Shown: one piece after another, positions 2,431 through 43,505 of the stretch | How the letters are laid out: every line of letters begins with the position of its first letter | Position numbering within the stretch: the stretch's first letter is position 1 | Assembly: GCF_004310685.1 (NCBI RefSeq) | Contig: NZ_SISG01000001.1 | Coordinates: 62,001 to 126,000, forward strand | Reading direction: 5' to 3' | From: Glaciihabitans arcticus | GTDB lineage: Bacteria > Actinomycetota > Actinomycetes > Actinomycetales > Microbacteriaceae | DNA length: 64,000 bases | Program-made: the position numbers and the translations under genes | The notes under the pieces: generated by a model | What the model was told of the DNA's origin: nothing | The model's database searches: none | Seen by the model: the letters and a program-made list of their open reading frames with translations, nothing else

Positions 2431-3587
2431 TGACCCTCGCCACTGGTTTCGTCGACGCGATCCGCAGGGTCGTCGGCGACGCCCCGCAGGTCGGACTGCA
2501 CGTTCCCGACATCGGCGAGGCGGAGAAGCGCTTCGTGGCCGAGTGCCTCGACTCGACCTTCGTCTCCTCGGTCGGCCCGTTCGTCACGCGCTTCGAGGAG
2601 GAGATCGCCGCCTTCACCGGTGCCCGCCACGCGATCGCCGTCTCCAACGGCACCTCCGCGCTGCACGTATCGCTCGTGCTCGCGGGCGTACTGCCCGGCG
2701 ACGAGGTCATCGTGCCGAGCCTCTCGTTCATCGCCACCGCCAACGCCGTCTCGCACGCGGGAGCGACGCCCTACTTCATCGACTCCGATGAAGAGACGAT
2801 GGGGATGTCCCCAGCCGCCCTCGAGGTGGCCCTCTCGTCGCTGCGGCGCGACGCCAACGGACTCACCAATCCCGTCACCGGCAACCGGGTCAGCGCGATC
2901 GTGCCGATGCACACCCTCGGTCACCCGGCCGACATCCTCGGGCTCCTCACCGTCGCGGACGCCTGCGGCGTGCCCATCGTCGAGGATGCCGCCGAGTCGC
3001 TCGGCAGCTGGGTAGGCGAGAAGCACACCGGTACCTTCGGACTGCTCGGCGTGCTGAGCTTCAACGGCAACAAGATCGTCACCACGGGCGGCGGTGGAAT
3101 GATCCTGACCGACGATCCCGAGCTGGCCCGCCGTGCCAAGCACCTCACCACCACGGCCAAGCTGCCGCACGCGTGGGAGTTCGAGCACGATGAAGTGGCC
3201 TGGAACTACCGCATGCCCAACCTCAATGCCGCGATGGGTGTCGCCCAGCTCACGAAGCTCGACGGCTACCTCGCTGCGAAGCGGGAGATCGCCGCACGGT
3301 ATGCCGCGAACTTCGCCGACATCCCGGGCCTGACCTTCATGGGCGAGCCCGCGGGAACTACGAGCAACTACTGGTTGTGCGCGGTGCGCGTCGACGGCGC
3401 CGACCTCGAGCTGCGCGACGAGCTGCTGCGCGCGAGCAACGACGACGGCCTGCAGTGCCGCCCGTTCTGGAACCTGCTGAGCGAGCAGCGCATGTACAGC
3501 TCCTGCCCGAAGGGCGACCTGACCGTCGCGACCCGCCTGCACGCGAGCGTCATCTCCATCCCCAGTTCTCCGGCGATCCTCGGCTGA
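2430..3587 (+). CDS. legC: LegC-family PLP aminotransferase
   Basis: A 385-residue DegT/DnrJ/EryC1-type sugar aminotransferase. The cofactor-binding segment EDAAES (185-190) and the Schiff-base lysine K215 in SFNGNKI are present, followed by the GGGGM segment typical of the fold. Full-length for the family. It should convert the LegB 4-keto product to the 4-amino-4,6-dideoxy sugar using glutamate as donor. The ATG shares a base with the legB stop (TGATG), so translation is probably coupled. The N-terminal extension with the LHVPDIGEAE motif is typical of the LegC subgroup rather than PseC. Confidence 0.87.
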   Translation: MTLATGFVDAIRRVVGDAPQVGLHVPDIGEAEKRFVAECLDSTFVSSVGPFVTRFEEEIAAFTGARHAIAVSNGTSALHVSLVLAGVLPGDEVIVPSLSFIATANAVSHAGATPYFIDSDEETMGMSPAALEVALSSLRRDANGLTNPVTGNRVSAIVPMHTLGHPADILGLLTVADACGVPIVEDAAESLGSWVGEKHTGTFGLLGVLSFNGNKIVTTGGGGMILTDDPELARRAKHLTTTAKLPHAWEFEHDEVAWNYRMPNLNAAMGVAQLTKLDGYLAAKREIAARYAANFADIPGLTFMGEPAGTTSNYWLCAVRVDGADLELRDELLRASNDDGLQCRPFWNLLSEQRMYSSCPKGDLTVATRLHASVISIPSSPAILG

Positions 3588-3589
3588 TC

Positions 3590-4762
3590 GTGACGACCGC
3601 GCGCAGGATCTGCGTTCTCACCGGCACCCGCGCCGACTACGGTCTGCTGCGCGGGCTGGTGCGCGCGATCGAGGCGTCACCGCTCGCGGAGCTTCAGCTG
3701 CTCGTCACGGGCACCCACCTCTCCGGTGAGCATGGTGCGACGACCGCCGAGATCGCCGCGGACGGCATCGCGCCGGCGTCCTCCGTTCGGATCTGGTCGG
3801 GGGATGACTCGGCGCTCGGTGCCGCGGTCGACACGGGAGGCGCGATCACCGCGTTCTCCCGCGCTCTCGACGAGCTCGCCCCCGACGTGCTGGTGATCCT
3901 CGGAGACCGACTCGAGGCGCTGGCCGCGGCCACCGCTGCGACGATCCTCGGCATTCCGGTCGCGCACATCCACGGCGGCGAGATCACCGAGGGTGCCATG
4001 GATGACGCCCTGCGCCACGCCATCACCAAACTCGCCTTCCTGCACTTCACCTCCACCGAGGACCACCGCCGTCGCGTGATCCAGCTCGGGGAGTCGCCCG
4101 AGCGCGTGTTCTTCTTCGGTGCTCCCGTCGTCGACGCCCTCGCGGAGCTCGATCTGCTCGGCCGAGCCGCACTCGAGGAGCGCTTCGGCATCGACCTCTC
4201 CGGCCCGACAGTTCTGATGACCTTCCACCCGGCGGGCATGGACGTGCTTCCCGCGGACGAGCTCTTCGATGAACTGCTCGCCGCCCTTGAGGCCACCGAC
4301 CTGCACCTCATCTTCACGGGCACCAACTCCGACATCGGGAGCGCGGGCATCCGTGCGGCGATGGCCGCCTTCGTGGCCGCCCACCCCGACCGCGTCGACT
4401 TCGTCGAGTCGTTCGGCCAGCTCGGCTACCTCAGCACGATGGCCCTCGTCGATGTCGTGACCGGCAACTCGTCGAGCACGGTGCTCGAGGCGCCTGTGCT
4501 GGGCATCCCCTCCGTGCTCGTGGGGGACCGCCAGGCCGGGCGCCCCATCGGCGCGAGCGTGCTCGTTCCCGCGCCCGATCGCGAGGCGATCCGGGTCACG
4601 ATCGAACGGGCCGCCTCGGCGGAGTTCCGCGCGGAGAGCACCGGCAGCCCCTCGCCGTTCGGTGAACCGGGCTTCGCCCGACGCACCCTTGCAGAATTGC
4701 TGGCGCACGACATCCCGCGCCCGCCTCGAAAGAAGTTCCACGATCTAAAGGACAGTCAATGA
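3590..4762 (+). CDS. legG: Hydrolysing UDP-GlcNAc 2-epimerase family protein LegG/NeuC
   Basis: A GTG at 3590, two bases after legC, gives a 390-residue protein that begins directly before the family's N-terminal motif GTRADYG (12-18). The longer open frame back to 3377 lies inside legC and was rejected. It has the HIHGGEITEGAMDD region (about 126-139) and C-terminal GNSSS and PVLGIP segments of the NeuC/LegG GT-B fold. The enzyme inverts C2 and hydrolyses the nucleotide, releasing the free 2,4-diacetamido-2,4,6-trideoxymannose used by LegI. It ends in an ATGA overlap with legI. It is the only sugar-nucleotide hydrolase seen in the window, so it may also serve the second cassette (inference). 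Confidence 0.86.
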   Translation: MTTARRICVLTGTRADYGLLRGLVRAIEASPLAELQLLVTGTHLSGEHGATTAEIAADGIAPASSVRIWSGDDSALGAAVDTGGAITAFSRALDELAPDVLVILGDRLEALAAATAATILGIPVAHIHGGEITEGAMDDALRHAITKLAFLHFTSTEDHRRRVIQLGESPERVFFFGAPVVDALAELDLLGRAALEERFGIDLSGPTVLMTFHPAGMDVLPADELFDELLAALEATDLHLIFTGTNSDIGSAGIRAAMAAFVAAHPDRVDFVESFGQLGYLSTMALVDVVTGNSSSTVLEAPVLGIPSVLVGDRQAGRPIGASVLVPAPDREAIRVTIERAASAEFRAESTGSPSPFGEPGFARRTLAELLAHDIPRPPRKKFHDLKDSQ

Positions 4763-5853
4763 CCACCGACCTGCTCATCATCGCCGAGGCCGGCGTCAAC
4801 CACAACGGGTCGCTCGACCGCGCGCTGGAGATGGTCGACGTCGCGGCGGACGCCGGTGCCGACGTGATCAAGTTCCAGACCTTCTCGGCCGACAAGCTCG
4901 CCCGCAAGGACGCCCAACTCGCCGAGTACCAGAAGACCTCCGACGGTGACACCCGCAGCCAGTGGGACCTGCTCAAGGGTCTCGAGCTGAGCCACAGCGA
5001 CTTCCTCGCCATTCGCGAGCGGTGCGCCGAGCGCGGCATCGTGTTCCTCTCCACAGGGTTCGACCTCGATGAGCTTCGCTTCCTGGTGACCGAGATCGAG
5101 ATCCCGATGGTCAAGATCGCGTCGGGTGACCTGACCTTCGCGCCCATGCTGTTCGACGCCGGGCTCACCGGCCTGCCGGTGATCCTCTCGACCGGAATGG
5201 CCGACCTCGCCGAGATCGAGAAGGCACTCGGCTTCATCGCCGTGGGCTTCGGAGTGAAGCACGGACTTCTCGACGCTGATGCCGTTCCCACGGCAGCCAC
5301 GCGCGAACTCGCGTGGAACAACGACGCGATCCGCGCGCTTCTCGTGGGCAATGTGACGATCCTGCACTGCACGACCCAGTACCCGGCGCCGCTGGAGATC
5401 CTCAACCTGCGGGCCATGGTCACGATCTCCGAGGCCTTCGGCATTCCGGTCGGCTATTCCGACCACTCGCTCGGCGGTGTCGCCTCGACCATTGCCGTGT
5501 CTCTTGGCGCGACGGTCATCGAGAAGCACTTCACGCTCGACAAGGAACTCGAGGGACCGGATCACGCCGCCTCCCTCGACGTGCCCGAGCTGAACGCCTT
5601 CGTCGCCCGACTGCGTGAGGTGGGCGTGGCGCTCGGCAGCCCCGTCAAGGCGTGCCAGCCTGAGGAGGTGTCGAACCGTGCAGCGGTGCGCCGCAGCCTC
5701 GTCGCCCGCGTACCCATCGCGGCGGGGGAGACCATCACTGCGGACCACCTCGAGAGCCGCCGCCCCGGCGCCGGCCGCACCTCCTTCGACTTCTACGAGG
5801 TCGTCGGCACCGCAGCACAGCAGGATTATGCCGTCGGCGAGTACCTTGGCTGA
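4759..5853 (+). CDS. legI: N,N'-diacetyllegionaminate synthase LegI (NeuB family)
   Basis: A 364-residue NeuB-family synthase with an N-terminal TIM barrel and a C-terminal SAF (antifreeze-like) domain from about residue 310. The barrel has EAGVNHNG (10-17), KFQTF (38-42), IASGD and EKHFT with a GPDH segment, all conserved in NeuB/LegI. It condenses phosphoenolpyruvate with the six-carbon sugar released by LegG to give the nine-carbon acid. The ATG overlaps the legG stop by four bases. This copy keeps the standard NeuB motif, unlike the second synthase at 10342. Confidence 0.88.
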   Translation: MTTDLLIIAEAGVNHNGSLDRALEMVDVAADAGADVIKFQTFSADKLARKDAQLAEYQKTSDGDTRSQWDLLKGLELSHSDFLAIRERCAERGIVFLSTGFDLDELRFLVTEIEIPMVKIASGDLTFAPMLFDAGLTGLPVILSTGMADLAEIEKALGFIAVGFGVKHGLLDADAVPTAATRELAWNNDAIRALLVGNVTILHCTTQYPAPLEILNLRAMVTISEAFGIPVGYSDHSLGGVASTIAVSLGATVIEKHFTLDKELEGPDHAASLDVPELNAFVARLREVGVALGSPVKACQPEEVSNRAAVRRSLVARVPIAAGETITADHLESRRPGAGRTSFDFYEVVGTAAQQDYAVGEYLG

Positions 5854-5854
5854 G

Positions 5855-6490
5855 ATGAAGCCAACGGTGGTGATGCTCGGTGCGGGCGGGCACGCGGGCG
5901 TGCTCCTCGAGATCCTGCTCGAGCAGGGGATTCCGCTGGAGGGCTACATCGCGCCCTCCGCTGAGGGGAGCCGGCTCGGGAACGTGCCGTGGCTGGGACC
6001 CGACGCCGCCCTCGACGGGCTGGACGCGGCATCCGTCTCGCTCGTCAACGGCCTGGGGCTGGCGAAGGCCTCGACGGCGCGCGGCACGGTGTTCGAGAAC
6101 GCCCGCGCGCTCGGCTTCACATTTCTGACGATCGTGGATGCCACGGCGATCGTCAAGGCGAGTGCCGACCTCGGCGAGGGCGCCCAGGTGCTCGCCGGTG
6201 CCATCGTCGGCACGGGTGCCCGCATCGGCGCTGACACGATCATCAACACGGGGGCAATCGTCGACCACGACTGCGTGGTCGGACCGCACGCCCACATCGC
6301 GACGGGGGCAGCCCTTGCCGGCGGAGTCACCGTCGGCGCCGGCTCGCACATCGGGCTCGGCGCTCGGGTGATACAGGGCATCACGGTAGGCTCGGGAAGC
6401 ACAATCGGAGCAGGCGCAGTCGTCCTCTCGGATGTGGCCGACCGGTCCACGGCAGTGGGGGTTCCCGCCACCAGCCGCTCCAGCACCTGA
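5855..6490 (+). CDS. NeuD/PglD-type sugar O/N-acetyltransferase (LegH-like)
   Basis: A 211-residue protein starting at the ATG one base after legI. The open frame runs back to 5615 inside legI and was not used; an ATG at 5828 is an alternative. It has an N-terminal PglD_N-type Rossmann half with GAGGHAG (9-15), then from about residue 85 a left-handed beta-helix of hexapeptide repeats (GAxVGxGARIGADTIIN pattern, then VDHDCVVG). This is the NeuD/PglD architecture. In this position the likely job is acetyl-CoA-dependent N-acetylation of the 4-amino group made by LegC, the LegH step. O-acetylation of the finished nonulosonate, as for sialic-acid NeuD, is the alternative. Confidence 0.78.
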   Translation: MKPTVVMLGAGGHAGVLLEILLEQGIPLEGYIAPSAEGSRLGNVPWLGPDAALDGLDAASVSLVNGLGLAKASTARGTVFENARALGFTFLTIVDATAIVKASADLGEGAQVLAGAIVGTGARIGADTIINTGAIVDHDCVVGPHAHIATGAALAGGVTVGAGSHIGLGARVIQGITVGSGSTIGAGAVVLSDVADRSTAVGVPATSRSST

Positions 6491-6522
6491 CCGCACTCGT
6501 AGGAAAGTGAGATTCGCCCGGT

Positions 6523-7569
6523 ATGGACATCACTGCTGTGTCGGTGGCCCCCGAGGCCTCGGTCCGCGACGTCATCGCCGCCATCGACGCGAGCCGCCGC
6601 CAGATCGCGCTCATCGTTGACGCAGACAGCCGCCTGCAGGGCGTTGTCACCGACGGCGACGTGCGCCGGGGCATCCTGCGCGGAGTATCGCTCGAAGCTC
6701 CCGCCACCGAGATCATGAACCCGAAGCCGCACACCGCTACGGTGCTGGACGAGCACGACGACATGGTCGCGCTGATGAAGAAGTTCGAGATCCGTCACCT
6801 ACCGGTTCTGGATGTCGCGGGTCGACTGGTCGACCTGTTCGCGGGCGAGGACGGCCGCAGTCATGTCGTCTCCACGCCCGTGGTGCTCATGGCGGGCGGA
6901 CGAGGCCAACGCCTCTACCCGCTCACCAAGGATGTGCCGAAGCCGATGTTGCCCATCGGTGACGTTCCGCTGCTCGAGATCATCCTGCGCAACCTCGCGG
7001 CGCAGGGCTTCGTGAATGTCTACATCTCGGTCAACTACCTCGCCGAAGTCATCGAGCAGCATGTGGGCGACGGCAGCGCTCTGGGACTCAAGGTCACCTA
7101 CGTGCACGAGGACAAGCCGCTCGGCACTGCCGGGGCGCTCGCCCAGCTGCACGGCGTGATCGGTGAACCGTTCGTCGTGATGAACTCCGACCTCCTGACC
7201 CATGTGAACCTGCGACGCCTGCTGAACTTCCACCTGAAGCAGCGGGCGATCGGTACGGTCGGCGTTCGCGAGCACGTATTCGAGATCCCCTACGGAGTGG
7301 TCAACCTCGATGGCGCGCGTGTCGAGTCGATGGTGGAGAAGCCGCTGCACCGGTCGCTCGTCAATGCCGGGATCTACGCCCTCGACCCGTCGGCGCTGGC
7401 GCTGCTTCCCGAAGACGAGTACTGCGACATGCCCACCCTGCTCGGCCTCATCATGCAGCAGGGCGACACGGTGAGCGCCTTCCCGATCCACGAGCAGTGG
7501 CTCGATGTGGGACGCCCGGAAGACCTCAACCAGGCCCGGAGCGACTCCGAGAAGTGGACGAACTCGTGA
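6523..7569 (+). CDS. ptmE: CBS-domain sugar-1-phosphate nucleotidyltransferase (PtmE-like)
   Basis: A 348-residue fusion. Two CBS motifs occupy residues 1-115 (TDGDVRRGI at 43-51 and the RHLPVLD stretch). An NTP_transferase domain follows, with MAGGRGQRL (123-131), then PKPM and DVGRPEDL near the end. In Campylobacter the homologue PtmE makes the GDP-linked glucosamine precursor of legionaminic acid. Its place between the acetyltransferase and legF fits that role. The stop codon overlaps the GTG of legF. The CBS pair suggests feedback control by an adenine nucleotide or pathway ligand (inference). Confidence 0.8.
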   Translation: MDITAVSVAPEASVRDVIAAIDASRRQIALIVDADSRLQGVVTDGDVRRGILRGVSLEAPATEIMNPKPHTATVLDEHDDMVALMKKFEIRHLPVLDVAGRLVDLFAGEDGRSHVVSTPVVLMAGGRGQRLYPLTKDVPKPMLPIGDVPLLEIILRNLAAQGFVNVYISVNYLAEVIEQHVGDGSALGLKVTYVHEDKPLGTAGALAQLHGVIGEPFVVMNSDLLTHVNLRRLLNFHLKQRAIGTVGVREHVFEIPYGVVNLDGARVESMVEKPLHRSLVNAGIYALDPSALALLPEDEYCDMPTLLGLIMQQGDTVSAFPIHEQWLDVGRPEDLNQARSDSEKWTNS

Positions 7570-8267
7570 GAATCTGCACCATCACCGTGCGCGCCGGCTC
7601 CAAGGGTGTTCCGGGAAAGAACCTGCGCGTCATCGCCGGTGTTCCGCTCTTCGGTCACTCGGTGAGGCAGGCGGCCGAGTCCGGCCTCTTCGACGAGGTG
7701 GTCGTCACCACCGACTCGCAGGAGATCCTCGACCTCGCACCGAGCTTCGGCGCGACGGACATCGTCGTTCGCCCGCCGCACATGGCCACGGACACGGCCG
7801 GCAAGGTGCAGGCCATCGCTCACGCCGTGCTCGAGATCGAGGAGCGTCGCGGTGTGCGCTTCGACACCTCCGTCGACCTCGATGCCACGTCACCGCTGCG
7901 AACCGTGGACGATATCCGCGCTGCCGTCGCACTCTTCGACGCCTCCGACGTGGACTCCCTCATCACCGGGTCCGAAGCCCGTCGCAATCCTTATTTCAAC
8001 CTCGTCGAATTGCAGCCTGACGGCACCGTCGCCGTCTCCAAGACTCCGGATGCCGCCGTGCTGCGCCGCCAGGATGCACCGCGGTCGTTCGACATGAACG
8101 GCTCGATCTACGTCTGGAAGCGGAATTCGCTCATCGAGAATCCCGTGGTGTTCTTTCCCTCCACGATCATCTACGAGATGCCGCAGGAGCGCTCGCAGGA
8201 TATCGACAGCGAGCACGACTTCGACATCGTCAAGTGGCAGATGGAGTCCGCCCGACCGATTGCCTGA
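7566..8267 (+). CDS. legF: CMP-legionaminate cytidylyltransferase LegF (NeuA family)
   Basis: The GTG at 7566, overlapping the ptmE stop, gives a 233-residue protein that starts two residues before the conserved beta-strand and has the nucleotide-binding motif RAGSKGVPGKN (9-19). VVTTDS, LDATSPLR and DIDSEHDFD near the C-terminus are also NeuA/LegF features. It activates the nonulosonic acid with CTP to give the CMP-sugar donor. An earlier in-frame start at 7497 lies inside ptmE and was rejected. It closes the first cassette; a 133-base gap separates it from the next gene. Confidence 0.85.
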   Translation: MRICTITVRAGSKGVPGKNLRVIAGVPLFGHSVRQAAESGLFDEVVVTTDSQEILDLAPSFGATDIVVRPPHMATDTAGKVQAIAHAVLEIEERRGVRFDTSVDLDATSPLRTVDDIRAAVALFDASDVDSLITGSEARRNPYFNLVELQPDGTVAVSKTPDAAVLRRQDAPRSFDMNGSIYVWKRNSLIENPVVFFPSTIIYEMPQERSQDIDSEHDFDIVKWQMESARPIA

Positions 8268-8400: not shown

Positions 8401-9381
8401 ATGAGCATCCTTTCCGGATCCGACGTACTGATCACGGGCGGCACTGGCTCGCTGGGCAAGGCTCTCACCCGCGAAATCCTCGACAACCACGATGTTCGTC
8501 GGTTGATCATCTTCAGCCGCGACGAGCTCAAGCAGCTCGAGATGCGCCGCCTGTTCGAGGATGACCCGCGCCTCCGTTTCTTCATCGGCGACATTCGCGA
8601 CCTCAAGCGCCTGCAGCGTGCGTTCCACGGTGTGGACTACGTCATCCACGCCGCCGCCCTGAAGCAGGTCGACACGGCGGAGTACAACCCGTTCGAGTAC
8701 ATCGAGACGAACGTTCGCGGCTCGCAGAACGTCATCGACGCGTCGATCGACAGCGGCGTCAAGAAGGTCGTCGCGCTGTCCACCGACAAGGCGTCGAGCC
8801 CCATCAACCTCTACGGTGCCACCAAGCTGTGCGCGGACCGCCTCTTCATCAGCGGCAACCACTACGCGGCCTCCTATGAGACCCGTTTCTGCGTGGTCCG
8901 CTACGGCAACGTGAGCGGCTCCCGCGGCAGCATCGTTCCGATCTGGCGCCAGCTCGCCGCCGAGGGCAAGTCCCTGCCGCTCACCGACACGCGCATGACC
9001 CGTTTCTGGATCACGCTTCCCCAGGCAGTCAAGTTCGTGCTCGACTCCTTCGAGTCGATGGAGGGCGGCGAGCTATATGTTCCCCGCATCCCGTCGATCC
9101 GCATCACCGATCTCGCCGAGGCGATCGCGCCCGGTGCCGCAACCCACGAAATCGGCATCCGCCCCGGTGAGAAGCTGCACGAAGAGATGATCGCCGCCGA
9201 CGATTCGCGTCGCACGGTCTCCCTCGGCAGCCGCTATGTCGTCAAGCCGCACCTCGCCGGCTGGGGTTACGTAGACCCCGAAGGTGACGCGGTGGAGGAC
9301 GGCTTCTCCTACCAGTCCGACTCGAACGACCAGTGGCTCTCCGTCGAGGAGATCCGCGAAATTCTCTCCGCGGACCTCTAA
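8401..9381 (+). CDS. PseB/FlaA1-type UDP-GlcNAc 4,6-dehydratase (inverting)
   Basis: A 326-residue SDR enzyme with GGTGSLGK (13-20), the catalytic STDK (127-130) and YGATK (138-142), and the RYGNVSGSRGS segment. This set is diagnostic for the C5-inverting 4,6-dehydratases (PseB, FlaA1, CapE) rather than the retaining LegB type. It should turn UDP-GlcNAc into UDP-2-acetamido-2,6-dideoxy-L-arabino-hexos-4-ulose. A GGAG ribosome site lies six bases before the ATG. The usual partner PseC aminotransferase is absent; the next gene is a reductase. Confidence 0.85.
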   Translation: MSILSGSDVLITGGTGSLGKALTREILDNHDVRRLIIFSRDELKQLEMRRLFEDDPRLRFFIGDIRDLKRLQRAFHGVDYVIHAAALKQVDTAEYNPFEYIETNVRGSQNVIDASIDSGVKKVVALSTDKASSPINLYGATKLCADRLFISGNHYAASYETRFCVVRYGNVSGSRGSIVPIWRQLAAEGKSLPLTDTRMTRFWITLPQAVKFVLDSFESMEGGELYVPRIPSIRITDLAEAIAPGAATHEIGIRPGEKLHEEMIAADDSRRTVSLGSRYVVKPHLAGWGYVDPEGDAVEDGFSYQSDSNDQWLSVEEIREILSADL

Positions 9382-9416
9382 ATCCGCGTGACGATGATCG
9401 AGGGATCGGTGAACCG

Positions 9417-10340
9417 GTGACCCGCTGGCTGGTGACCGGAACCACGGGGCTGCTCGGCAGCAACGCCGCGATCTCGCTCGCCGAGGCGAACGACGTGACC
9501 GGCGTCTCCCGCACTGCCCCGATGGGTGCGCCAGTGCCCTTCGTGGAGACCGACATCAGCTCGGCTGCCGGACGCTCGGGTCTCGTCGACCGCGCCGAGG
9601 CCGATGTTGTGCTGCACGCCGCCGCCATCGCCTCGATCGAGGAGGCCGAGCAGAAGCCCGAGCTCGCCTGGCGACTCAACGTCGAGGCGTCCGCGGACCT
9701 CGCCGCGCAGGCCGCAGAAAACGGGTCGCGTTTCGTATACATCTCGACGGACGCGGTCTTCGACGGCGAGAACGGCCCCTACGACGAGGGCTCCGAGCCG
9801 AGCCCGACCAACGAGTACGGTCGCACGAAGCTCGCCGGCGAGCGAGCCGTTCTCGAGGCCAACCCCGAGGCGCTCGTCGCCCGGGTCAACTTCTACGGCT
9901 GGAGCCCGAGCGGCACCCGCAGTCTCGCCGAGTTCTTCCACACTCGACTCGCGCTCGGTGAGACGGTTCGCGGATTCACCGACACCGTCGTCAGCACGCT
10001 CTATGTCGGTCACCTCGTCGATGCGATCGCGGCGCTCGTCGCGGCGGGAGCGAGCGGCGTGACCCATGTCGTGAGCAGCGAGGCGACATCGAAGTTCGAC
10101 TTCGGCCGACGTATCGCGGCCGGCTTCGGTTTCGACCCCCAGCTCGTGCAGCCCGCGCTCTCCACCGACGTGCTCGCCGTCAAGCGCGGCTCCGACATCA
10201 GCCTGTCGACCGGGCGTGCGTCCGGGATGCTCGGCGCGCCTCTCGCAGGCCAGCAGGCCGGCATCGATCGGCTCGTTACAGAATTCACCTCAGGCAGGCC
10301 GGCAGCGGTCCGCCAGTTCGCCCCACAGAAAGCAGTGTGA
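9417..10340 (+). CDS. RmlD-like NAD(P)-dependent sugar-nucleotide reductase
   Basis: A GTG start at 9417 gives 307 residues beginning just before the Rossmann motif GTTGLLG (8-14); upstream in-frame starts overlap the previous gene. STDAVFDG (110-117), then PxPTNEYGRTK with the YxxxK pair Y134/K138, match RmlD (dTDP-4-dehydrorhamnose reductase) and related 4-ketoreductases. Placed after an inverting 4,6-dehydratase, it probably reduces the 4-keto group to a hydroxyl, in the way CapF-type enzymes do. No rmlA, rmlB or rmlC is nearby, so a rhamnose role is unlikely. Substrate is inferred. Confidence 0.75.
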   Translation: MTRWLVTGTTGLLGSNAAISLAEANDVTGVSRTAPMGAPVPFVETDISSAAGRSGLVDRAEADVVLHAAAIASIEEAEQKPELAWRLNVEASADLAAQAAENGSRFVYISTDAVFDGENGPYDEGSEPSPTNEYGRTKLAGERAVLEANPEALVARVNFYGWSPSGTRSLAEFFHTRLALGETVRGFTDTVVSTLYVGHLVDAIAALVAAGASGVTHVVSSEATSKFDFGRRIAAGFGFDPQLVQPALSTDVLAVKRGSDISLSTGRASGMLGAPLAGQQAGIDRLVTEFTSGRPAAVRQFAPQKAV

Positions 10341-10341
10341 C

Positions 10342-11415
10342 ATGACCTTCAGCATCGGAAAGCACCAGATCGGGCTCGAGCACCCAACCTACTTCGTCGC
10401 CGACATCGCGGCCAGCCACGACGGGTCACTCGACCGCGCCGTCGAGCTCATCCACCTCTCCGCCGAGGCCGGCGCGGACGCAGCGAAGTTCCAGAACTTC
10501 ACCGCTGACGAGATCGTGTCCGACCGGGGATTCCGCGAGCTCGGCGCCAAGCTCAGCCACCAGGCGAAGTGGACCAAGCCCGTGAGCGAGGTCTACGGCG
10601 ATGCCTCGATTCCGCACGCCTGGACACCCATCCTCAAGCAGGCCTGCGACGAGGCGGGCATCGACTACTTCTCGGCCGCCTATGACTTCGCGGCGATCGA
10701 CATGCTCGAGCCCTACGTTCCCGCCTACAAGATCGGCAGCGGCGACGTGAACTGGCTCGAGGCGGTCGAGTACACCGCGGCGAAGGGCAAGCCCATGCTC
10801 GTCGCGACGGGTGCGACGACCCTCGGCGAGGTCATCGACGTCGTCGGTGCGGTGCAGAAGTACACCCGTGACCTCGTGCTGATGCAGTGCAACACGAACT
10901 ACACCGCGTCCCTCGACAACTTCCAGCACCTGAACCTCAACGTTCTCAAGACCTACTCGACGCTGTTCCCCGACGTAATCCTCGGCCTCTCCGACCACAC
11001 CCCCGGCCACGCGTCCACCCTGGGCGCGATTGCGCTCGGCGCGCGTGTCATCGAGAAGCACTTCACCGATGACGTCACCCGCGAGGGACCGGACCACGCC
11101 TTCTCCATGGACCCGACGTCCTGGCGCGACATGGTCGACCGCTCGCGCGAGCTGGAGTCCGCTCTCGGCTCTACCCTCAAGGAGGTCGCGCCGAACGAGT
11201 CCGAGACCGTCGTTGTACAGCGTCGTGCTGTTCGCGCGCGTTACGACCTGCCCGCCGGGCATGTCATCACCCGCGAAGACCTCACCGTGCTGCGTCCCGC
11301 CACGGTGGGTGCCGTGGGTGCCGCACACGTTGCCGAGCTCCTCGGACGCACCACGACGCGCCCGCTCGAGACCGCCGAAACGGTCAGCTGGGCAGACGTC
11401 TCCGGACCGGCCTGA
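10342..11415 (+). CDS. Second NeuB/SpsE-family nonulosonate synthase (divergent)
   Basis: A 357-residue NeuB-family protein starting one base after the reductase stop (TGACATG). TIM barrel with KFQNF, KIGSGDVN, GLSDHTPG and EKHFT plus GPDHAFSMDP; C-terminal SAF domain from about residue 293. It should condense PEP with a 2-acetamido sugar. The N-terminal motif, AEAGVNHNG in LegI, reads ADIAASHDG (20-28), so the conserved Glu is Asp and the Asn of NH is Ser. That suggests a different sugar substrate from LegI (inference). A PseI-like or SpsE-like role is possible. Confidence 0.78.
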   Translation: MTFSIGKHQIGLEHPTYFVADIAASHDGSLDRAVELIHLSAEAGADAAKFQNFTADEIVSDRGFRELGAKLSHQAKWTKPVSEVYGDASIPHAWTPILKQACDEAGIDYFSAAYDFAAIDMLEPYVPAYKIGSGDVNWLEAVEYTAAKGKPMLVATGATTLGEVIDVVGAVQKYTRDLVLMQCNTNYTASLDNFQHLNLNVLKTYSTLFPDVILGLSDHTPGHASTLGAIALGARVIEKHFTDDVTREGPDHAFSMDPTSWRDMVDRSRELESALGSTLKEVAPNESETVVVQRRAVRARYDLPAGHVITREDLTVLRPATVGAVGAAHVAELLGRTTTRPLETAETVSWADVSGPA

Positions 11416-12462: not shown

Positions 12463-13232
12463 GCACCGTGTGCGTCGTCCAGGCGCGATATTCGTCCAGT
12501 CGCCTGCCCGGCAAGGTGCTCGAGCGCATCGGCGACTCCTCCATGATCGAGCGCGTGCTCGAGCGGCTGAGCCGGTCGTCTCAACTGGACGAGATCGTGG
12601 TCGCCACGACCGACCAGCCCGCCGACGTCGCGGTCGCGGCGGCCGTCGAAGCCGCCGGCTTCCGGGTCATTCGGGGCGCGCAGTACGACGTGCTCGAACG
12701 CTATCTACAGGCCGTGTCCGATCGGGATGACGCCGACGTCGTGGTGCGCGTGACGGCCGACTGCCCGTTCATCGACCCGGACATCGTCGACCGAGTCATC
12801 GCCTTTCGCACTGAGGGCGACCTCGACTTCGCGGCCAACCGGCTCCCGCCGCCCCACGCTCGCACCTACCCGGTCGGCCTCGACGTCGAAGTGGCGACCG
12901 TCGTGGCACTGCGCCGGGCGGGCGCCGAGGCGACGGCTCCCCACCACCGCGAGCACGTGATGCCGTACCTGTACGAGAGTGGGGACCGATTCCGGTTCGG
13001 AGTGGTTCAGCTTGACGAGGACCTGTCGGGCTACCGCTGGACCGTAGACACCCCCGAGGATCTCGCGGCGGCACGGGCGATCGCCGAACTCGTGGGTCCC
13101 GAGCCGTTCGGCTGGCGCGACGTGCTCGAGGTTGCGCGGATGCATCCCGAAATCGCACGGATCAACGGATCTCTCGCCCAGAAGGATGTCACCGTGGTCG
13201 ACACCCGCTGGACAACGGGGCCGACCGCCTAG
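12459..13232 (+). CDS. SpsF-like cytidylyltransferase
   Basis: A 257-residue nucleotidyltransferase-fold protein with the N-terminal motif QARYSSSRLPGK (8-19), then VVRVTADCPFIDP and RWTVDTPEDL. This is the SpsF/FlmC-like CTP:sugar cytidylyltransferase family, related to KdsB and NeuA. In Bacillus and in flagellar glycan loci spsF sits with the NeuB-like spsE, as here. It probably makes the CMP-donor from the second synthase's product. It overlaps the GT4 gene by four bases and converges on the next gene, the two stop codons sharing CTAG at 13229-13232. Confidence 0.75.
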   Translation: MSTVCVVQARYSSSRLPGKVLERIGDSSMIERVLERLSRSSQLDEIVVATTDQPADVAVAAAVEAAGFRVIRGAQYDVLERYLQAVSDRDDADVVVRVTADCPFIDPDIVDRVIAFRTEGDLDFAANRLPPPHARTYPVGLDVEVATVVALRRAGAEATAPHHREHVMPYLYESGDRFRFGVVQLDEDLSGYRWTVDTPEDLAAARAIAELVGPEPFGWRDVLEVARMHPEIARINGSLAQKDVTVVDTRWTTGPTA

Positions 13233-14542
13233 TTATCGGGCAGCGTGCCGTCGGACTTCGCGGCATCGAAGGCGTTGCGCCAGCTGAGCTCCCGTGCGGC
13301 CTTGACCGAGCAGACCACGAAGGCGAGCCAGCCGAACTCGATGAGGATCGAGCTCTCGGAGAGCCCGCTGATGAGCAGCACCACGAGCACGAGGGCCGGC
13401 CAGGCGAACACGATGCTGCGGCGTCGGGATGCGAGCAGCCAGGACCGCACGAAGGTGAGACCGAGCAGACCCACGAAGATCACGACGCCCACGAGCCCGA
13501 GCTGGAACCAGACATCGAGGTAGGCGTTGAGGGCCGCGGTGGGAACGCGCGGGGAGAACGTATCGAAGACGAGGAACGGTGGCACCTCGGTGCGCCAGAT
13601 GCCGATCCAGCCCCAGCCCTCGAGGCTGTGCACCGGCACGAGGTCCCAGACGCGCTGCCACACGTTGAGGCGGTAGTTGAGCTCGCCGCCGGCGTTGAAC
13701 GCCGCGACGATCTGGCCGCGCAGCCCCCAGGCGACGCCCGCGACGACCAGGAACAAGGCGAGTGTCGCCACCTGCCAGTACCGCCGCTGGCCGGAGGGCA
13801 CACGACGCAGGCCGTAGAGCACGGCGCCGGCGAGCAGCACGAGAAGCAGGATGCCCCACGCGATGGGCGACCGGGTGAAGAAGAGCATGATCGCGGCCAG
13901 GGCGAGCGAGCCGACGGAGAGCTGGCGGGACACGGAACGGGTGCGCAATTCGGTGCCGAAGGTAACCAGAGCGATGACGGACACGATGCCCAACTGGTTG
14001 CGCGTGCCGAGGAGTCCCTGGATCGGACCGCCGGCATCGAGATTCGCGGTGATGCCGAGCAGGTGGATCGGGGTGTCGATGAGCAGGCCGGCGACGATCT
14101 CGATGACGATCGAGGCGACGAGGATTCCGCGCAGCACGTCTCCGAAGGCGCGCACGATCTGGATCGTGTCACGCACGAGCGCGACGTACACGCCAAGGAT
14201 GGTGAACGCCGCGAGGTAGGCGAGTCCGCCGAGGGTCGCCCATTGGTACTCGCTCCACAGGATGGAGAGCCCCGCCCAGGCGGCGAACACGAGCAGCGAG
14301 ATCGGCAGCAGGGCACGCCAGCCGACCTCCTTCCACTGCGAGGCGAGGGAGGCGAGCGCGAGCACGACGAGGGAGCACAGCACGGCGAGAAAACCGGCCC
14401 AGCCGATGGTCTGCCGCACCGCGTAGGCGATCACCGCTAGCCCGACGGCAGCCATGGTGAGCGCAGAGGAGAATCGCGGGGAGCCGAGCATCGCTGAGGC
14501 GAGCTGGAGCGGTGCGGGTCGCGAAGGCCTGGTCATTGTCAC
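13229..14542 (-). CDS. O-antigen ligase/polymerase-family membrane protein, family His missing
   Basis: A 437-residue polytopic membrane protein with about ten hydrophobic segments. A GTG at 14542 and an ATG at 14536 are alternative starts. The Wzy_C/WaaL loop is recognisable from GWGWIGIWRTEVPP to LNAYLDVWFQLG. The two paralogues nearby read HNAWLDLW here with His342; this protein has Leu338 (codon CTC). The conserved periplasmic-loop His is considered important in WaaL ligases, so the protein may be inactive as ligase, be a polymerase variant, or have a changed function. It is the last gene of a four-gene minus-strand run. Confidence 0.75.
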   Translation of the reverse strand: MTMTRPSRPAPLQLASAMLGSPRFSSALTMAAVGLAVIAYAVRQTIGWAGFLAVLCSLVVLALASLASQWKEVGWRALLPISLLVFAAWAGLSILWSEYQWATLGGLAYLAAFTILGVYVALVRDTIQIVRAFGDVLRGILVASIVIEIVAGLLIDTPIHLLGITANLDAGGPIQGLLGTRNQLGIVSVIALVTFGTELRTRSVSRQLSVGSLALAAIMLFFTRSPIAWGILLLVLLAGAVLYGLRRVPSGQRRYWQVATLALFLVVAGVAWGLRGQIVAAFNAGGELNYRLNVWQRVWDLVPVHSLEGWGWIGIWRTEVPPFLVFDTFSPRVPTAALNAYLDVWFQLGLVGVVIFVGLLGLTFVRSWLLASRRRSIVFAWPALVLVVLLISGLSESSILIEFGWLAFVVCSVKAARELSWRNAFDAAKSDGTLPDN

Positions 14543-14548
14543 TACAGG

Positions 14549-16630
14549 TTACGGCGCATCCGGCAGCACCGCGTCGATCTCGTCGGCAAGGTAGGGGGCG
14601 AGTGTGGTGCTGAAGGTCGCGCTCACATGGATGGCGTCGAAGTAGACGAGTACTCCTCCGATCACGCTGTAGCAGGTCTTGTCGTCGCAGAATCGGTCGC
14701 TGAAGTCGGCGAGGGTTAGAGTGTCGCTCGCGACGCGCTCGGCGGCCTTGACGAGCGGGTCGGGGGTGAGCCAGTCGGCCCGCGGGCCGTCGCACTCGGT
14801 GAGATCGGTGGGGTTGAGCGCCACGCAGTCGGGCACGTTGAAGCCGGCGATCGGGGTGTCGCGAATGAGGAGGACCTCGGTTCCCGCGTCGGACCAGGCC
14901 TGAAGCGGTTCGACGTAGCCCTCGACCGAAGCGTCGAAGAAGTCCTCGTTGGGCACGCCGACGAGTTCACCGTTCGAGGCGGCCGTGAGCACCACGAGGT
15001 CGAAGGAATCGCCCTCCGTGGCCTCGACGACGGCCTGGCCCCACTCGCGGCAACTCTCCGCGATCGCCGCGGTGTCGAATTCGATGAGAGCGGATGACGG
15101 TCGACAGGCGGACCCGAGGAAGGTAATGACCCGAGCGTCGTGGCTGCGGGCGTACTCCTGCATCGCGGGCAGCCACTGTCCGGCGTGCGAATTGCCGACG
15201 AGCGCGATGCGCGTCGTCGCGTCCTTGTCTCCATAGCTGCAGGTCGCGACATCGTCAAACGGCGGGAACGCGAAGCAATCGTCGGAGTAGGCGTCCGACT
15301 CGTCGTCGATGGCCACGGCCGGGGCGGGGACGATGCCGGTGCCGCGCAGGTCGCAGTCGTCGGTTCCCAGGGTGGCTGCTCCGAAACAGCGGGCGTTGGC
15401 TTCTTCGATCTGCTCGAGCTCCGCCTGGGCGGCTGCGGAGACCGCGGCGACCTGGGCAACCGGGATCACCGCGACCGAGACCGCGAGCACCATCCCCACC
15501 GCGGCGAGGGCGTACGTGCGGGAGAGTCGCGCACTGAGCCAGCGCGCTCGCCGAACCGGGTCCTCGACGAACAGCTTCGTCGCGGTCGCGAGCAGCACTC
15601 CAGCGATGATGATGCCGAGCTTCCAAGGCAGGGTCAGTTCGCCGCCGATCGCGAACGGCAGCAGCACGATGAGCGGCCAGTGCCACAGGTAGAGCGAGTA
15701 GGAGACGTCGCCGAGGTGCTGGATCGGGCGGATTCCCAGAGCCTGCGAGGGCGATCCGACACCGTCGCTGTTCGCGGCGATCACGAGCACGGCGCCGGTG
15801 ATCGGCAGCAGCGCGGCGAAGCCGGGGAACGGGGTCGCCGAGGTGAAGACGACGGCTGACACTCCGATGAGCAGCAGGCCGAGCCAGGCGGTCGTCGTCC
15901 GTATCGCCCGGGATACCGGGGCGACCGGACCGCGCGCGGCGATTACCGCGGCGAGGATGCCGCCCGCTCCGAGTTCCCACAGCCGCGTGGGCGTCACGAA
16001 GTATGCCGACGCCGGCGCGATGCTGGTCCAGGCGATGGATGTCGCGAGCGAGGCCCCCGCGAAAACCGAGATGACCGCCACGAGTCCCCAGCTTCCCGGG
16101 TCGTTCACGCGACGGCCACTATTCTTCGTGCGTGACCGCAGCCAGAGCGCGCCGGCGATGAGCAGAGGCCAGACGAAGTAGAACTGCTCCTCGACCGAGA
16201 GGGACCAGTAGTGCTGCAGCGGGGAGGGCGCGCTCTCGGCCCCCAGGTAGTCGACCGAGCTCGCGGCGAGCACCCAGTTGACGAAATACAGGGTGGCGGC
16301 CCCGGCGTCCCGGCCGAGGTCGAGCAGCCGGGTGGGCGGGAGCACGAGGCATCCCGCAATCACCGTCGCGACGATGACCAGCAGGCTCGCCGGAAGCAGC
16401 CGCCGGAGCCGGCGACCCCAGAAGTCGGCGACATCGCGCAGGCTGCGCGGAGGAGACCGCAACAGGTGGCTCGTGATCAGGTAGCCGGAGATCACCAGGA
16501 AGACGTCGACGCCGACGTATCCGCCGGTGAGCTGATCGGGCCACAGGTGGAAGCCGAGCACCAGGAGCACGGCAATCGCGCGCAGGCCCTGAATGTCAGA
16601 ACGGACCGCGCTTGTGGTGGAAGCGGTCAC
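14549..16630 (-). CDS. OafA/YrhL-type membrane acyltransferase with C-terminal SGNH domain
   Basis: A 693-residue protein with two parts. Residues 1 to about 370 form an Acyl_transf_3 membrane domain with the GFHLW histidine (H28) and a FLVISGYLIT segment. The C-terminal 300 residues form a SGNH hydrolase-like domain with GNSH at about residue 478 and DAIH at about 665. This is the architecture of OafA-like enzymes that move acetyl groups across the membrane onto extracytoplasmic polysaccharides. Next to ligase/polymerase genes it probably O-acetylates the same glycan. The ATG overlaps the stop of the upstream ligase gene by four bases, so it belongs to that operon. Confidence 0.85.
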   Translation of the reverse strand: MTASTTSAVRSDIQGLRAIAVLLVLGFHLWPDQLTGGYVGVDVFLVISGYLITSHLLRSPPRSLRDVADFWGRRLRRLLPASLLVIVATVIAGCLVLPPTRLLDLGRDAGAATLYFVNWVLAASSVDYLGAESAPSPLQHYWSLSVEEQFYFVWPLLIAGALWLRSRTKNSGRRVNDPGSWGLVAVISVFAGASLATSIAWTSIAPASAYFVTPTRLWELGAGGILAAVIAARGPVAPVSRAIRTTTAWLGLLLIGVSAVVFTSATPFPGFAALLPITGAVLVIAANSDGVGSPSQALGIRPIQHLGDVSYSLYLWHWPLIVLLPFAIGGELTLPWKLGIIIAGVLLATATKLFVEDPVRRARWLSARLSRTYALAAVGMVLAVSVAVIPVAQVAAVSAAAQAELEQIEEANARCFGAATLGTDDCDLRGTGIVPAPAVAIDDESDAYSDDCFAFPPFDDVATCSYGDKDATTRIALVGNSHAGQWLPAMQEYARSHDARVITFLGSACRPSSALIEFDTAAIAESCREWGQAVVEATEGDSFDLVVLTAASNGELVGVPNEDFFDASVEGYVEPLQAWSDAGTEVLLIRDTPIAGFNVPDCVALNPTDLTECDGPRADWLTPDPLVKAAERVASDTLTLADFSDRFCDDKTCYSVIGGVLVYFDAIHVSATFSTTLAPYLADEIDAVLPDAP

Positions 16631-17937
16631 GCCACGGGCTCATCACGTTTGGTCTTGACCGCCGCGATCACGAGCAGCACCATTCCGTACTCGATGAGCA
16701 GTCGGCTCTCGGCGAAGCTCTGCACGATGAGGGCAACGAGCAACAGTAGGGGCAGCAGGGACTGCACGGTGAAGTGACCGGTGTCGGCGGGGCTGGTGAT
16801 CACGCGATCGGTGGCGAGCAGCCAGGACCGCACGAGCGAGCTCAGCACCAGAAGGGCGAAGATCACGGCGCCGATGACGCCGACCTGCAGCCAGAGGTCG
16901 AGCCACGCGTTGTGCGCGTGCAACTGGCGCACGCCCGAGTTGAAGGCGAGATCGTTGAACGGTGCGACCCATGGCGCCCAGAAGCTCACCCAGCCCCAGC
17001 CGAACCCGGGGCGCTCCTGCGCGAGGGTGATGACCGCCTCCCAGATGCCGGTGCGGTGCGTGAGGGTGTCGTTCTTGCCGAGCAGGCCGAGCAGTGGCGA
17101 GCGGAACATGATCGCGAGAGTCGAGCCCGCGATGGCCACTAGCGTGAGGCTCGCGTAGGCGAGCCCGCGTGTGCCGCGAGCCGTCGCGCGGCGAATGAGC
17201 CAGACGGCGCCGACCACAACCGCGAGCACGACGATGGCGACGATGATGGTGGCCGAGCGCGTGAGGTAGACGGTGAGCGCCGCGAGCAGCAGGGCTGCGA
17301 TTCCGGATGCCCGGCTCACCGTGCGCGCGACGAGCTGGATCCCGAACACTATGAGGCCGAGCAGCGCGACGAAGCCGAGCAGGCTCGAGTTGCCCACGAC
17401 GCCCTGGATCTTGTCGCCTTCGAGCAGCAGGTTGCGCGACCAGTAGAGCAGCTGGGGGATCTTGTCGAGCGAGTCGTAGTCCACGCCGGGGGAGGGGAAG
17501 ATCGGCAGCACGGGCCTGCGGATGAGCAGCGAGACGACGAGCTCGAACACGATCGAGAGGCCGAGCACGGCACGCAGCGCCCAGCCGAGGGTGCGCAGAA
17601 TGTCGGCCCAGTCGAGGCATATCGCGATGGCCAGGCCGAGCGCGACGGTCATCCAGGTGGCGAGCAGGCCGACGGCCGTCGCGCCCGGGTAGTACGACCA
17701 GGTGATGGACAGGGTCGCGAGGGCGAGGAAGGCGATCAACGGGTAGGGCAGTCCGCCGACGGTCCAGCGATGACGGTCGCGCACGAGCAGCAGCACCGAG
17801 ATCACGGCGAGCACCACGGCGACGGCCCCGAAGCCGTACCAGGAGATCGAGTAGCGTATCGAGTCACCCGCAAGCACGGTGTACAGGGCGACGACCGCGA
17901 ACCCCATGCGGAATCGGCGGTCGTCAAGGAACTTCAT
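16627..17937 (-). CDS. O-antigen ligase/polymerase-family membrane protein
   Basis: A 436-residue polytopic membrane protein of the Wzy/WaaL family, with the loop GWGWVSFW followed by RQLHAHNAWLDLW (His342). It is a close paralogue of the next gene upstream (17969-19333): long stretches such as YWSRNLLL and SLLGFVALLGLIVFGIQLV are nearly the same, and the family His falls at the same residue number in both. Role inferred from the family: polymerising or ligating undecaprenyl-linked saccharides outside the membrane. No Shine-Dalgarno sequence precedes the ATG; TAGTCT lies at -13 to -8. Confidence 0.8.
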   Translation of the reverse strand: MKFLDDRRFRMGFAVVALYTVLAGDSIRYSISWYGFGAVAVVLAVISVLLLVRDRHRWTVGGLPYPLIAFLALATLSITWSYYPGATAVGLLATWMTVALGLAIAICLDWADILRTLGWALRAVLGLSIVFELVVSLLIRRPVLPIFPSPGVDYDSLDKIPQLLYWSRNLLLEGDKIQGVVGNSSLLGFVALLGLIVFGIQLVARTVSRASGIAALLLAALTVYLTRSATIIVAIVVLAVVVGAVWLIRRATARGTRGLAYASLTLVAIAGSTLAIMFRSPLLGLLGKNDTLTHRTGIWEAVITLAQERPGFGWGWVSFWAPWVAPFNDLAFNSGVRQLHAHNAWLDLWLQVGVIGAVIFALLVLSSLVRSWLLATDRVITSPADTGHFTVQSLLPLLLLVALIVQSFAESRLLIEYGMVLLVIAAVKTKRDEPVA

Positions 17938-17968: not shown

Positions 17969-19333
17969 TTAAACGAATGCGGCCCGGCCGCTGAGGGCGC
18001 GCTTCACGACCAGCGCCGGATCGGGTTGTTCGGCGGCCACGTGGTGCGTCTTGACCGCGGCGATCACGAGCAGCACGATGCCGTACTCGACCAGCAGCCG
18101 GCTCTCGGCAAAGGTCTGCACCACGAGGGCCGTGAGCAGCAGCAGCGGCAGGAAGGAGAGCGCGGTGAATCGCGCGGGTCCCGCGGCGCCCGGCGTCATC
18201 CTGTTCGTGGCGAAGACCCACGATCGCACGAGAGCGGCGAGTACTACGAGAGCGACGATCACGGCACCGACGATGCCGAGCTGCAGCCACAGGTCGAGCC
18301 AGGCGTTGTGCGCGTGCAGCTGACGCACGCCGTGGGCGGTGTGCAGGGTGTCGAAGGGTGAGACCCAGGGGATCCAGAAGCTCACCCAGCCCCAGCCGAG
18401 CACCGGCCGCTGCTGGGCGAGATCGATGACGTCCGCCCAGATGCTCGTGCGGTCGGTGAGCGTGTCGTCCTTGCCGAGCAGGCCCAGCAAAGAGGAGCGG
18501 AAGGTCAGCGCGGTCAGGATGCCGCTCACGACCACCGTGAGGAGGCCGGCGTACCCGAATCCGCGGTGCTGGCCGGTGCGGGCGAGCCGCAGCAGCACCA
18601 CCGCGACGACCACGGCGGCCAGCACGACGATCGCGACGGTGATGGTCGCCGAGCGGGTGAGCAGCACGGTGAGGGTGGCAAGCGAGAGCGACGCGATGCC
18701 GAGTGGCTTCGACACGGAGGCCGAGACCAGCTGGATGCCGAACACGATGAGCCCGAGCAGCGCGACGAAGCCGAGAAGCGCGGAGTTGCCCACGATGCCC
18801 TGGATCTTGTCGCCGGCGAGAAGCAGGTTGCGCGACCAGTAGTACAGGTCCGGCACCTCGTCGAGGGTGGAGTAGTCCATGCCGGGGGCGGGTACGAGCG
18901 GGAAGATCGGTTTGCCGACGAATATCGACACCCAGAGCTCGAACAGGATCGACGAGACGAGGATGGTGCGGATCGCCCAGCCGAGCGCGCGCAGGATCCC
19001 GGGCCAGTCGAGGCTGACGGCGATACCCAGGCCGACGGCAGCCGTCATCCATGTCACGAGGGTGCCGAGGGCGGTGGCGCCCGGATAGTACGACCAGACG
19101 ATGGAGGCCGTGGCGAACGCGAGGAAGGCGAGCAGCAGAAAGGGCAGGCCGCCGATGCTCCAGCGGTCGCGATGCCTCCAGAGCAGCAGCACCGAAACGA
19201 CAGTGATCGCAATGGCAGCGGCCCCGAAGCCCCACCAGCCGACCGAGTAGCGCACGGCGTCACCCGCGAGCACGGTGAAGAGTGAGACGATCGCGTAGCC
19301 CAGGCGGAATCGGCGCTCGTCGAGAAGCTTCAT
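17969..19333 (-). CDS. O-antigen ligase/polymerase-family membrane protein (tandem paralogue)
   Basis: A 454-residue polytopic membrane protein, the duplicate partner of 16627-17937; the two begin alike (MKLLDERRFRLGY against MKFLDDRRFRMGF) and stay colinear to the loop HAHNAWLDLWLQ with His342. The C-terminus has about 15 extra residues. In plain terms it is a probable glycan ligase or polymerase of the cytoplasmic membrane. A 7-bp inverted repeat (19334-19340 and 19348-19354) ends one base before the ATG and could either end transcription from the acyl-CoA dehydrogenase gene or fold over the start region. Confidence 0.8.
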   Translation of the reverse strand: MKLLDERRFRLGYAIVSLFTVLAGDAVRYSVGWWGFGAAAIAITVVSVLLLWRHRDRWSIGGLPFLLLAFLAFATASIVWSYYPGATALGTLVTWMTAAVGLGIAVSLDWPGILRALGWAIRTILVSSILFELWVSIFVGKPIFPLVPAPGMDYSTLDEVPDLYYWSRNLLLAGDKIQGIVGNSALLGFVALLGLIVFGIQLVSASVSKPLGIASLSLATLTVLLTRSATITVAIVVLAAVVVAVVLLRLARTGQHRGFGYAGLLTVVVSGILTALTFRSSLLGLLGKDDTLTDRTSIWADVIDLAQQRPVLGWGWVSFWIPWVSPFDTLHTAHGVRQLHAHNAWLDLWLQLGIVGAVIVALVVLAALVRSWVFATNRMTPGAAGPARFTALSFLPLLLLTALVVQTFAESRLLVEYGIVLLVIAAVKTHHVAAEQPDPALVVKRALSGRAAFV

Positions 19334-41809: not shown

Positions 41810-41893
41810 AGTGGGTCGAGCCTATCGACTGGGAGTCTGGCGGTCGGGGTCATTTTCGACGACCCGGCGCGTGAGCCATGGGAGAATACAGGC

Positions 41894-43354
<1,461 letters not shown>

Positions 43355-43360
43355 TCACGA

Positions 43361-43398
43361 GCCGGTCGAGTAGGCCCGCCAGGGCCGTATCGAGACCC
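43361..43398. repeat. REP-like palindromic element after ahcY
   Basis: The stretch begins GCCGGTCGAGTAGG and ends CCGTATCGAGACCC, around a small stem GGCCC-gcca-GGGCC (43373-43386). I recognise the GGTCGAGTAG...CGTATCGAGACC outline as a frequent intergenic repeat of Micrococcales genomes (from memory, no search). It is the only clear copy in this window. Confidence 0.5.
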
Positions 43399-43430
43399 GT
43401 GTTGGCGGGTCTACCCCCGGTTGCGGGGGT
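43393..43430 (+). terminator. Twin hairpins downstream of ahcY
   Basis: AGACCCG/CGGGTCT (43393-43399 and 43406-43412) and ACCCCCG/CGGGGGT (43413-43419 and 43424-43430) form two adjacent 7-bp stems, the second with a GTTG loop. A T-containing stretch (GTGATGTTTCG) follows. They probably terminate ahcY transcription. Confidence 0.5.
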
Positions 43431-43505
43431 GTGATGTTTCGTCGCGTTTACTAGCCTGAAGTCATCCGTCGAGGGCCGTCGGATGCACCCGACGCTAGGC
43501 ATCCC

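Follow-up and report, generated by a model that had tools for sequence, protein, structure and literature searches.

We found that the Microbacteriaceae contain an old and fixed pair of Wzy_C proteins, one of which lacks the histidine of the family. In Glaciihabitans arcticus, the protein without the histidine, which we call A, has leucine at this position (residue 338). The histidine was lost long ago, in a single event and across the whole A clade, together with residues at other polar positions; A has its own distinct set of invariant residues, and its gene is regularly paired with that of a histidine-bearing paralogue (B). Because the histidine that defines the O-antigen ligases is absent, we class A as a Wzy_C protein with a WaaL-type fold and not as an O-antigen ligase. 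A may be a working transferase whose acceptor activation is altered, with Asp156 as the candidate residue; we prefer this reading tentatively, as its chances seem to fall a little short of even.

Except where a locus name precedes them, coordinates refer to the window, by which we mean the whole 64,000-nt stretch of G. arcticus that was analyzed (GCF_004310685.1, NZ_SISG01000001.1 positions 62,001-126,000). The main features are:

13229..14542, minus strand: A, a 437-aa Wzy_C (PF04932) membrane protein, the paralogue without the histidine (from PF04932, orthologues, and fold)
13529..13531, minus strand: codon CTC, Leu338 of A, aligned with the Wzy_C / WaaL histidine (from the sequence and the column states)
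14075..14077, minus strand: codon GAC, Asp156 of A, which follows TM5 in a loop; a candidate for the displaced base
13670..13672, minus strand: Arg291 of A, the same in all A, B, and outgroup proteins; its spacing makes it the putative second Und-PP arginine of WaaL
13355..13357, minus strand: Glu396 of A, invariant in A; by spacing, the putative counterpart of the activity-linked Glu of PglL/PglS
14549..16630, minus strand: acyltransferase-3 plus SGNH (OafA-like) protein between B and A (PF01757, PF19040)
16627..17937, minus strand: B, the 436-aa Wzy_C partner, with the His342 codon at 16912-16914 (PF04932, fold model)
17969..19333, minus strand: C (454 aa), which arose as a tandem copy of B and is 65% identical to it; His342 codon at 18308-18310

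All three paralogues pass the PF04932 cut-off of 31.7 bits (49.2 bits for A; 61.3 and 62.3 for the other two). Against the IctB model (TIGR00947), A scores just 14.9 bits, below the cut-off of 366.4. The original prediction had noticed the motif difference among the paralogues, and direct reading bears it out. The plus-strand letters at 13529-13531 are GAG, which gives CTC on the minus strand as residue 338 of the ORF 14542..13229, and the motif of A is LNAYLD (CTC AAC GCC TAC CTC GAT). The ORFs 17937..16627 (B) and 19333..17969 (C) both encode HNAWLD, with CAC at residue 342 in each. B and C are sisters on the tree (support 100) and represent a lineage-specific tandem duplication.

Leucine at this position is not peculiar to G. 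arcticus. Across 124 distinct A-type proteins, column 338 is Leu in 94, Val in 7, His in 7, Ser in 6, Ala in 6, Phe in 3, and Gly in 1, so that 117 of the 124 are not His. In contrast, the column is His in all 118 B-type proteins and in all 17 outgroup proteins from other families of the order. This split exceeds chance. (The counts are from 259 distinct rows, each 330 residues or longer, with A orthologues drawn from whole genomes and from named genomes. The MAG titles of a few named A loci point to other groups, such as Pseudonocardiales for L045 and Acidobacteria for L080; these are probably mis-titled bins and were kept.) In a first pass, 95 distinct full-length A proteins had Leu in 65, His in 7, Val in 7, Ser in 6, Ala in 6, Phe in 3, and Gly in 1, and all 86 full-length B proteins had His. 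The codons at this position are CTC (61), CTG (26), TTG (5), CAC (7), and others in A, and CAC (109) or CAT (9) in B. Aligning homologues had been proposed as the way to see if Leu is fixed, and Leu is the norm among the orthologues. Because it is found in 94 of 124, a sequencing error or a strain-specific mutation at 338 is ruled out. It had also been considered that His might be missing from the entire orthologous group without loss of function: His is indeed nearly missing (7 of 124 A-type proteins have it), but other active-site positions have changed as well.

Leu338 is a real departure from the Wzy_C family, as had been claimed. To survey other genomes of the phylum, we took the best 29 Wzy_C loci of a longer match list, a sample biased to high scores. 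The His motif of the family, searched as the regular expression H[NSDQT]...GxxG, is found in 26 of these 29 (in L195 and L197, the motif is only loose). Within A, the loop SAxNAYLDVWFQLG is strongly conserved around the variable residue 338 (alignment of 30 A proteins). B has 29 nearly invariant columns; in A, only three of them are more relaxed than 338, whose variability within A as a whole is mid-range (259th most variable of 423 columns). The residue that is now at 338 in A is only loosely constrained.

Our tree has 162 rows after identity filtering (98 A, 52 B, and 12 outgroup; 3 of the A rows have His), and the trait column was left out. All 98 A rows form one clade (SH-aLRT 100) on a stem of 1.69 changes per column. 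B as one group is weakly supported (33) and may be paraphyletic to A, which leaves the A clade unaffected; L170 and L041 are long branches. The label of His or not His needs two changes on the tree. The simplest history is one loss of His on the A stem followed by a single regain in the nearby Salinibacterium clade. The three His-bearing A rows (L049, L020, and L036) group with the A of the window (support 98). Therefore, near G. arcticus, Leu is the older state and His is the newer state, in a neighboring clade. The original prediction of a single base change is right at the level of the codon but not as history, given that A and B are about 35% identical and given the length of the stem; if anything, the single-base step ran from Leu to His in the neighboring clade. 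Nor was one paralogue mutated in the G. arcticus strain, as the orthologous group spans the family and has Leu as its older state. Similarly, the claim that the rest of the loop is kept holds from about residue 337 onward, but further upstream the loop differs. In the seven His-bearing A genes (L019, L020, L036, L037, L044, L049, and L050), the other A-type residues that were checked are unchanged, including Asp156, Ala284, and Ser398.

The A gene had been described as intact, and it is. Across 45 close pairs each (82-98.5% identical), the median dN/dS is 0.124 in A against 0.118 in B; the two proteins are equally constrained, and A is under purifying selection. This ratio and the full-length open frames in most orthologues rule out a decaying gene. 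Six A orthologue rows among the matches listed have one in-frame stop. At some A genes, the open frame is 850 to 960 aa long and resembles a fusion; in L010 and L013, this frame overlaps the B gene in another reading frame, so it is a stop-free extension rather than a demonstrated fusion.

In 299 genomes of Microbacteriaceae, A has a match at 1e-20 in 251; 199 of these have matches at or under 1e-60 (A-type) and 52 have weaker matches only. A B-type match (B profile, E at or under about 1e-70) is present in 266 genomes, including every A-bearing genome. (We counted the 199, 52, and 266 genomes manually from match tables.) Thus, in this sample of the family, A is present only where B is present, and the reverse does not hold. 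Across the order as a whole (396 genomes), A-type matches (E < 1e-100) are confined to the Microbacteriaceae, and the best match elsewhere has E = 3e-53. The two genes are also neighbors: of 80 named loci, 74 have B on the same strand less than 170 bp upstream of A and 5 have it further upstream; in 1, the fetched flank has no B. (The last is L100, the sole named locus that has A without B in the 8 kb fetched upstream.) In the window, the acyltransferase-SGNH gene separates B and A, unlike the 74 of 80 other loci with B immediately upstream. The flanking genes of A vary between genomes, according to an all-against-all clustering of 63 stretches (62 of the 80 named loci and the window); this clustering is noisy, with a mechanical choice of frames, and was used solely for this statement.

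A and B are both predicted to have a WaaL-type fold. The model of A has a mean pLDDT of 75, with residues 305-343, the region of most interest, below 50, and the model of B has a mean pLDDT of 88. Both models match ligand-bound WaaL (7TPG) best. For A, the match has Z = 16.4 (rmsd 5.7 over 335 aligned residues), versus 8.9 to 10.4 for FtsW/RodA and at most 6 for unrelated rows. For B, VIA-align gives Z = 17.4, versus 8.7 to 10.1 for FtsW/RodA. With Foldseek, the A model matches the WaaL fold (E = 1.4e-4); for the B model, FtsW is the top match (E = 4.6e-3), and 7TPG is not among the 36 matches listed. In the helices of the A model, Asp156 comes directly after TM5 (126-155), and residue 338 is at the start of the helix that follows the large loop. 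By analogy with WaaL, the side of the protein with Asp156 and 338 would be the outer one.

The sequence profiles of A and B matched PDB sequences by chance only, which makes residue-by-residue transfer from 7TPG impossible, so positions were assigned by spacing and motif. The distance from the arginine to the histidine is 48 residues in Cupriavidus metallidurans WaaL (Cm), 50 in E. coli WaaL, 51 in PglL, and 47 in both paralogues (from 295 to 342 in B, from 291 to 338 in A). By these spacings, we matched Arg291 and Leu338 of A to the Arg and the His of WaaL.

The histidine is not the only position at which A departs from B, which descends from a common ancestor with A. Lys or Arg is found at position 284 in 118 of 118 B and in 17 of 17 outgroup proteins, and A instead has Ala, Gly, Thr, or Val in 122 of 124. 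Thr289, like the column of His338, is invariant in B and lost in A. Arg398 is also lost in A; it is present in 98 of 118 B proteins and in all 17 of the outgroup. Asp156 is found in 124 of 124 A proteins, versus Arg at the same position in 101 of 118 B proteins. On the other hand, much is kept in A: Arg291, Trp295, Gly309, Gly311, Trp316, Asp343, Gln347, and Glu396 are found in 124 of 124, and Arg275 (123 of 124) and Arg181 (120 of 124) are nearly invariant. Some of these are common to A, B, and the outgroup (Glu148, Arg291, Trp295, Gly309, Gly311, and Trp316), and Asp343 and Gln347 are invariant in both A and B. Further residues that are invariant in A include Glu198, Arg124, and Gln128.

Several characterized systems can be compared to A. 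With WaaL (CAZy GT121; 7TPG is from Cupriavidus metallidurans), A shares the Wzy_C domain, the predicted fold, and, to judge by spacing, what may be one of the two diphosphate arginines. The acceptor-activating His of WaaL (Cm His313, E. coli His338) is replaced in 117 of 124 A orthologues. The second Und-PP arginine (Cm Arg265, E. coli Arg288) would correspond to Arg291 (spacing of 47 versus 48). The first one (Cm Arg191, E. coli Arg215) can be placed at Arg224 by motif only; this residue is found in 59 of 124 A proteins versus 90 of 118 B proteins, a pattern equally compatible with an enzyme that has weakened and with one that has changed. Gram-positive hosts also have no LPS core to serve as the acceptor, unlike WaaL systems.

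The O-oligosaccharyltransferases PglL and PglS belong to the same superfamily. Passages of PMC3643930 match Arg288, His338, and Arg215 of E. coli WaaL to Arg298, His349, and Arg224 of PglL, and parts of PMC12800693 describe His324 of PglS as the proposed base, with His324Ala as an inactive control, and report that Glu404 of PglL matters for activity. (Wzy_C motifs are also covered in a portion of PMC12502699.) A lacks this His, and Glu396 of A would match PglL Glu404 by spacing. Among the polymerases, sections of PMC10920833 state that SEDS proteins have Asp at the position of the O-ligase His and that polymerases of the clan have Asp or Glu there, with the exception of GT127. That family has neither at this position, and its conserved Glu lies between TM5 and TM6. 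None of the 124 A rows has Asp or Glu at column 338, as the GT-C1 clan polymerases other than GT127 do. A resembles GT127 (also in clan GT-C1) in lacking these residues at the His position, and the invariant acid that the helices of the A model place after TM5 may be a counterpart of the GT127 Glu; in A it is Asp156. This is a likeness of described features.

Our preferred reading can be stated as a mechanism. B would be the canonical enzyme: at the outer face of the membrane, its His342 would activate an acceptor, to which B would move a glycan carried by undecaprenyl diphosphate. A would retain the binding of the undecaprenyl-diphosphate glycan via Arg291, and probably Arg181 and Arg275, would use no histidine at 338, and would act on a different acceptor or carry out a different step. 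The activation of the acceptor may have shifted to another acid, for which Asp156 in the TM5-TM6 loop is the best candidate, or may be needless. The placement of Asp156 resembles the arrangement proposed for CAZy family GT127.

The three readings named at the outset (an inactive partner, a polymerase-type variant, or neofunctionalization) were well chosen, and each of them retains some probability. A could be a catalytically dead partner, which we consider rather unlikely; it would bind donor or acceptor and associate with B or control its activity, with no chemistry of its own. The joint loss of several polar residues is also the pattern of a pseudoenzyme (His338 is gone together with Lys/Arg284, Thr289, and Arg398), and the B-then-A gene pair and the restriction of A-type genes to genomes with B-type genes (199 versus 266 of 299) would fit such a partner. 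However, the conservation of Arg291, Arg275, Arg181, Asp343, Gln347, and Glu396 (120 to 124 of 124) and a dN/dS no higher than that of B suggest a working site, although a protein that only binds could look alike in both respects. At the opposite end, it is very improbable that nothing has changed, with the His dispensable in the A branch and A catalyzing the same reaction as B. The drift of 338 among hydrophobic or small residues and the single return of His would agree with this, but His is invariant in 118 B and 17 outgroup rows, other presumed active-site columns have shifted too, and the A clade has invariants of its own.

It is also unlikely, although less so, that A is the repeat-unit polymerase (the Wzy role) for the polysaccharide of the variable locus next to it, with B as the ligase. 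Wzy usually varies along with the polymer, and A, a paralogue of B, is kept across genomes with varying flanks. The cluster near A has two ABC transporters (upstream, along with glycosyltransferases) and no PF13440 flippase, so there is no clear need for a Wzy step in it, and the lack of Asp or Glu at column 338 sets A apart from clan polymerases other than GT127. Conversely, no PF14296 polymerase was found in the G. arcticus genome, and clan polymerases can do without the His, according to passages of PMC10920833. PF13425 matched nothing in the genome, but it matched nothing in the controls either, so this result carries no weight. The only other true Wzy_C protein of the genome also lacks the His (L174 6125-7411, at about 2.366 Mb; by sequence reading, it has GTQGQ there). 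It belongs to a separate exopolysaccharide locus, next to a sugar-phosphate transferase, a chain-length-like protein, and a Wzx-type protein. This appears to be an ordinary Wzx/Wzy locus, and GTQGQ might be how a polymerase would look at this position. The fifth PF04932 match of the genome (weak; L175 7188-8789) is a false positive inside a MalF-type ABC permease.

Returning to the altered transferase, a broader proposal covers both it and the inactive partner. The Microbacteriaceae may have a two-protein unit for glycan transfer that combines a His-bearing Wzy_C protein with a His-less, charge-swapped paralogue (Arg to Asp156), which would have either a new activation site or the role of the non-catalytic half of a heteromeric ligase. 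We offer this as a possible but doubtful scheme. We know of no earlier pairing of this kind in the WaaL superfamily, and a literature search that covered few subscription journals found no such pair described for Microbacteriaceae; if the proposal is true in either form, this would be the first one known to us. How far the superfamily depends on the His is hard to judge, because natural His-less members resemble decayed ones. A and B provide a natural control set: over 100 His-less orthologues under strong purifying selection, a His-bearing paralogue in the same genomes, and a small clade in which the His alone returned. The pair also points to constant genes that may finish surface glycans across a Gram-positive family.

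The G. arcticus genome has two matches to the LCP domain; LCP proteins are the usual wall-glycopolymer ligases of Gram-positives. Beside A, on the plus strand, the window encodes a legionaminic-acid type set (1435-8267), with LegB and LegC over their NCBIfam cut-offs, along with a UDP-GlcNAc 2-epimerase, NeuB, a CBS-nucleotidyl transferase, and a CMP-sugar transferase. A second set (8401-11415) is led by PseB (over its cut-off) and has its own NeuB-like synthase, so this one locus perhaps makes two nonulosonic acids. Elsewhere in the window, 38966-51401 contains two very long plus-strand ORFs of 1462 and 2631 aa.
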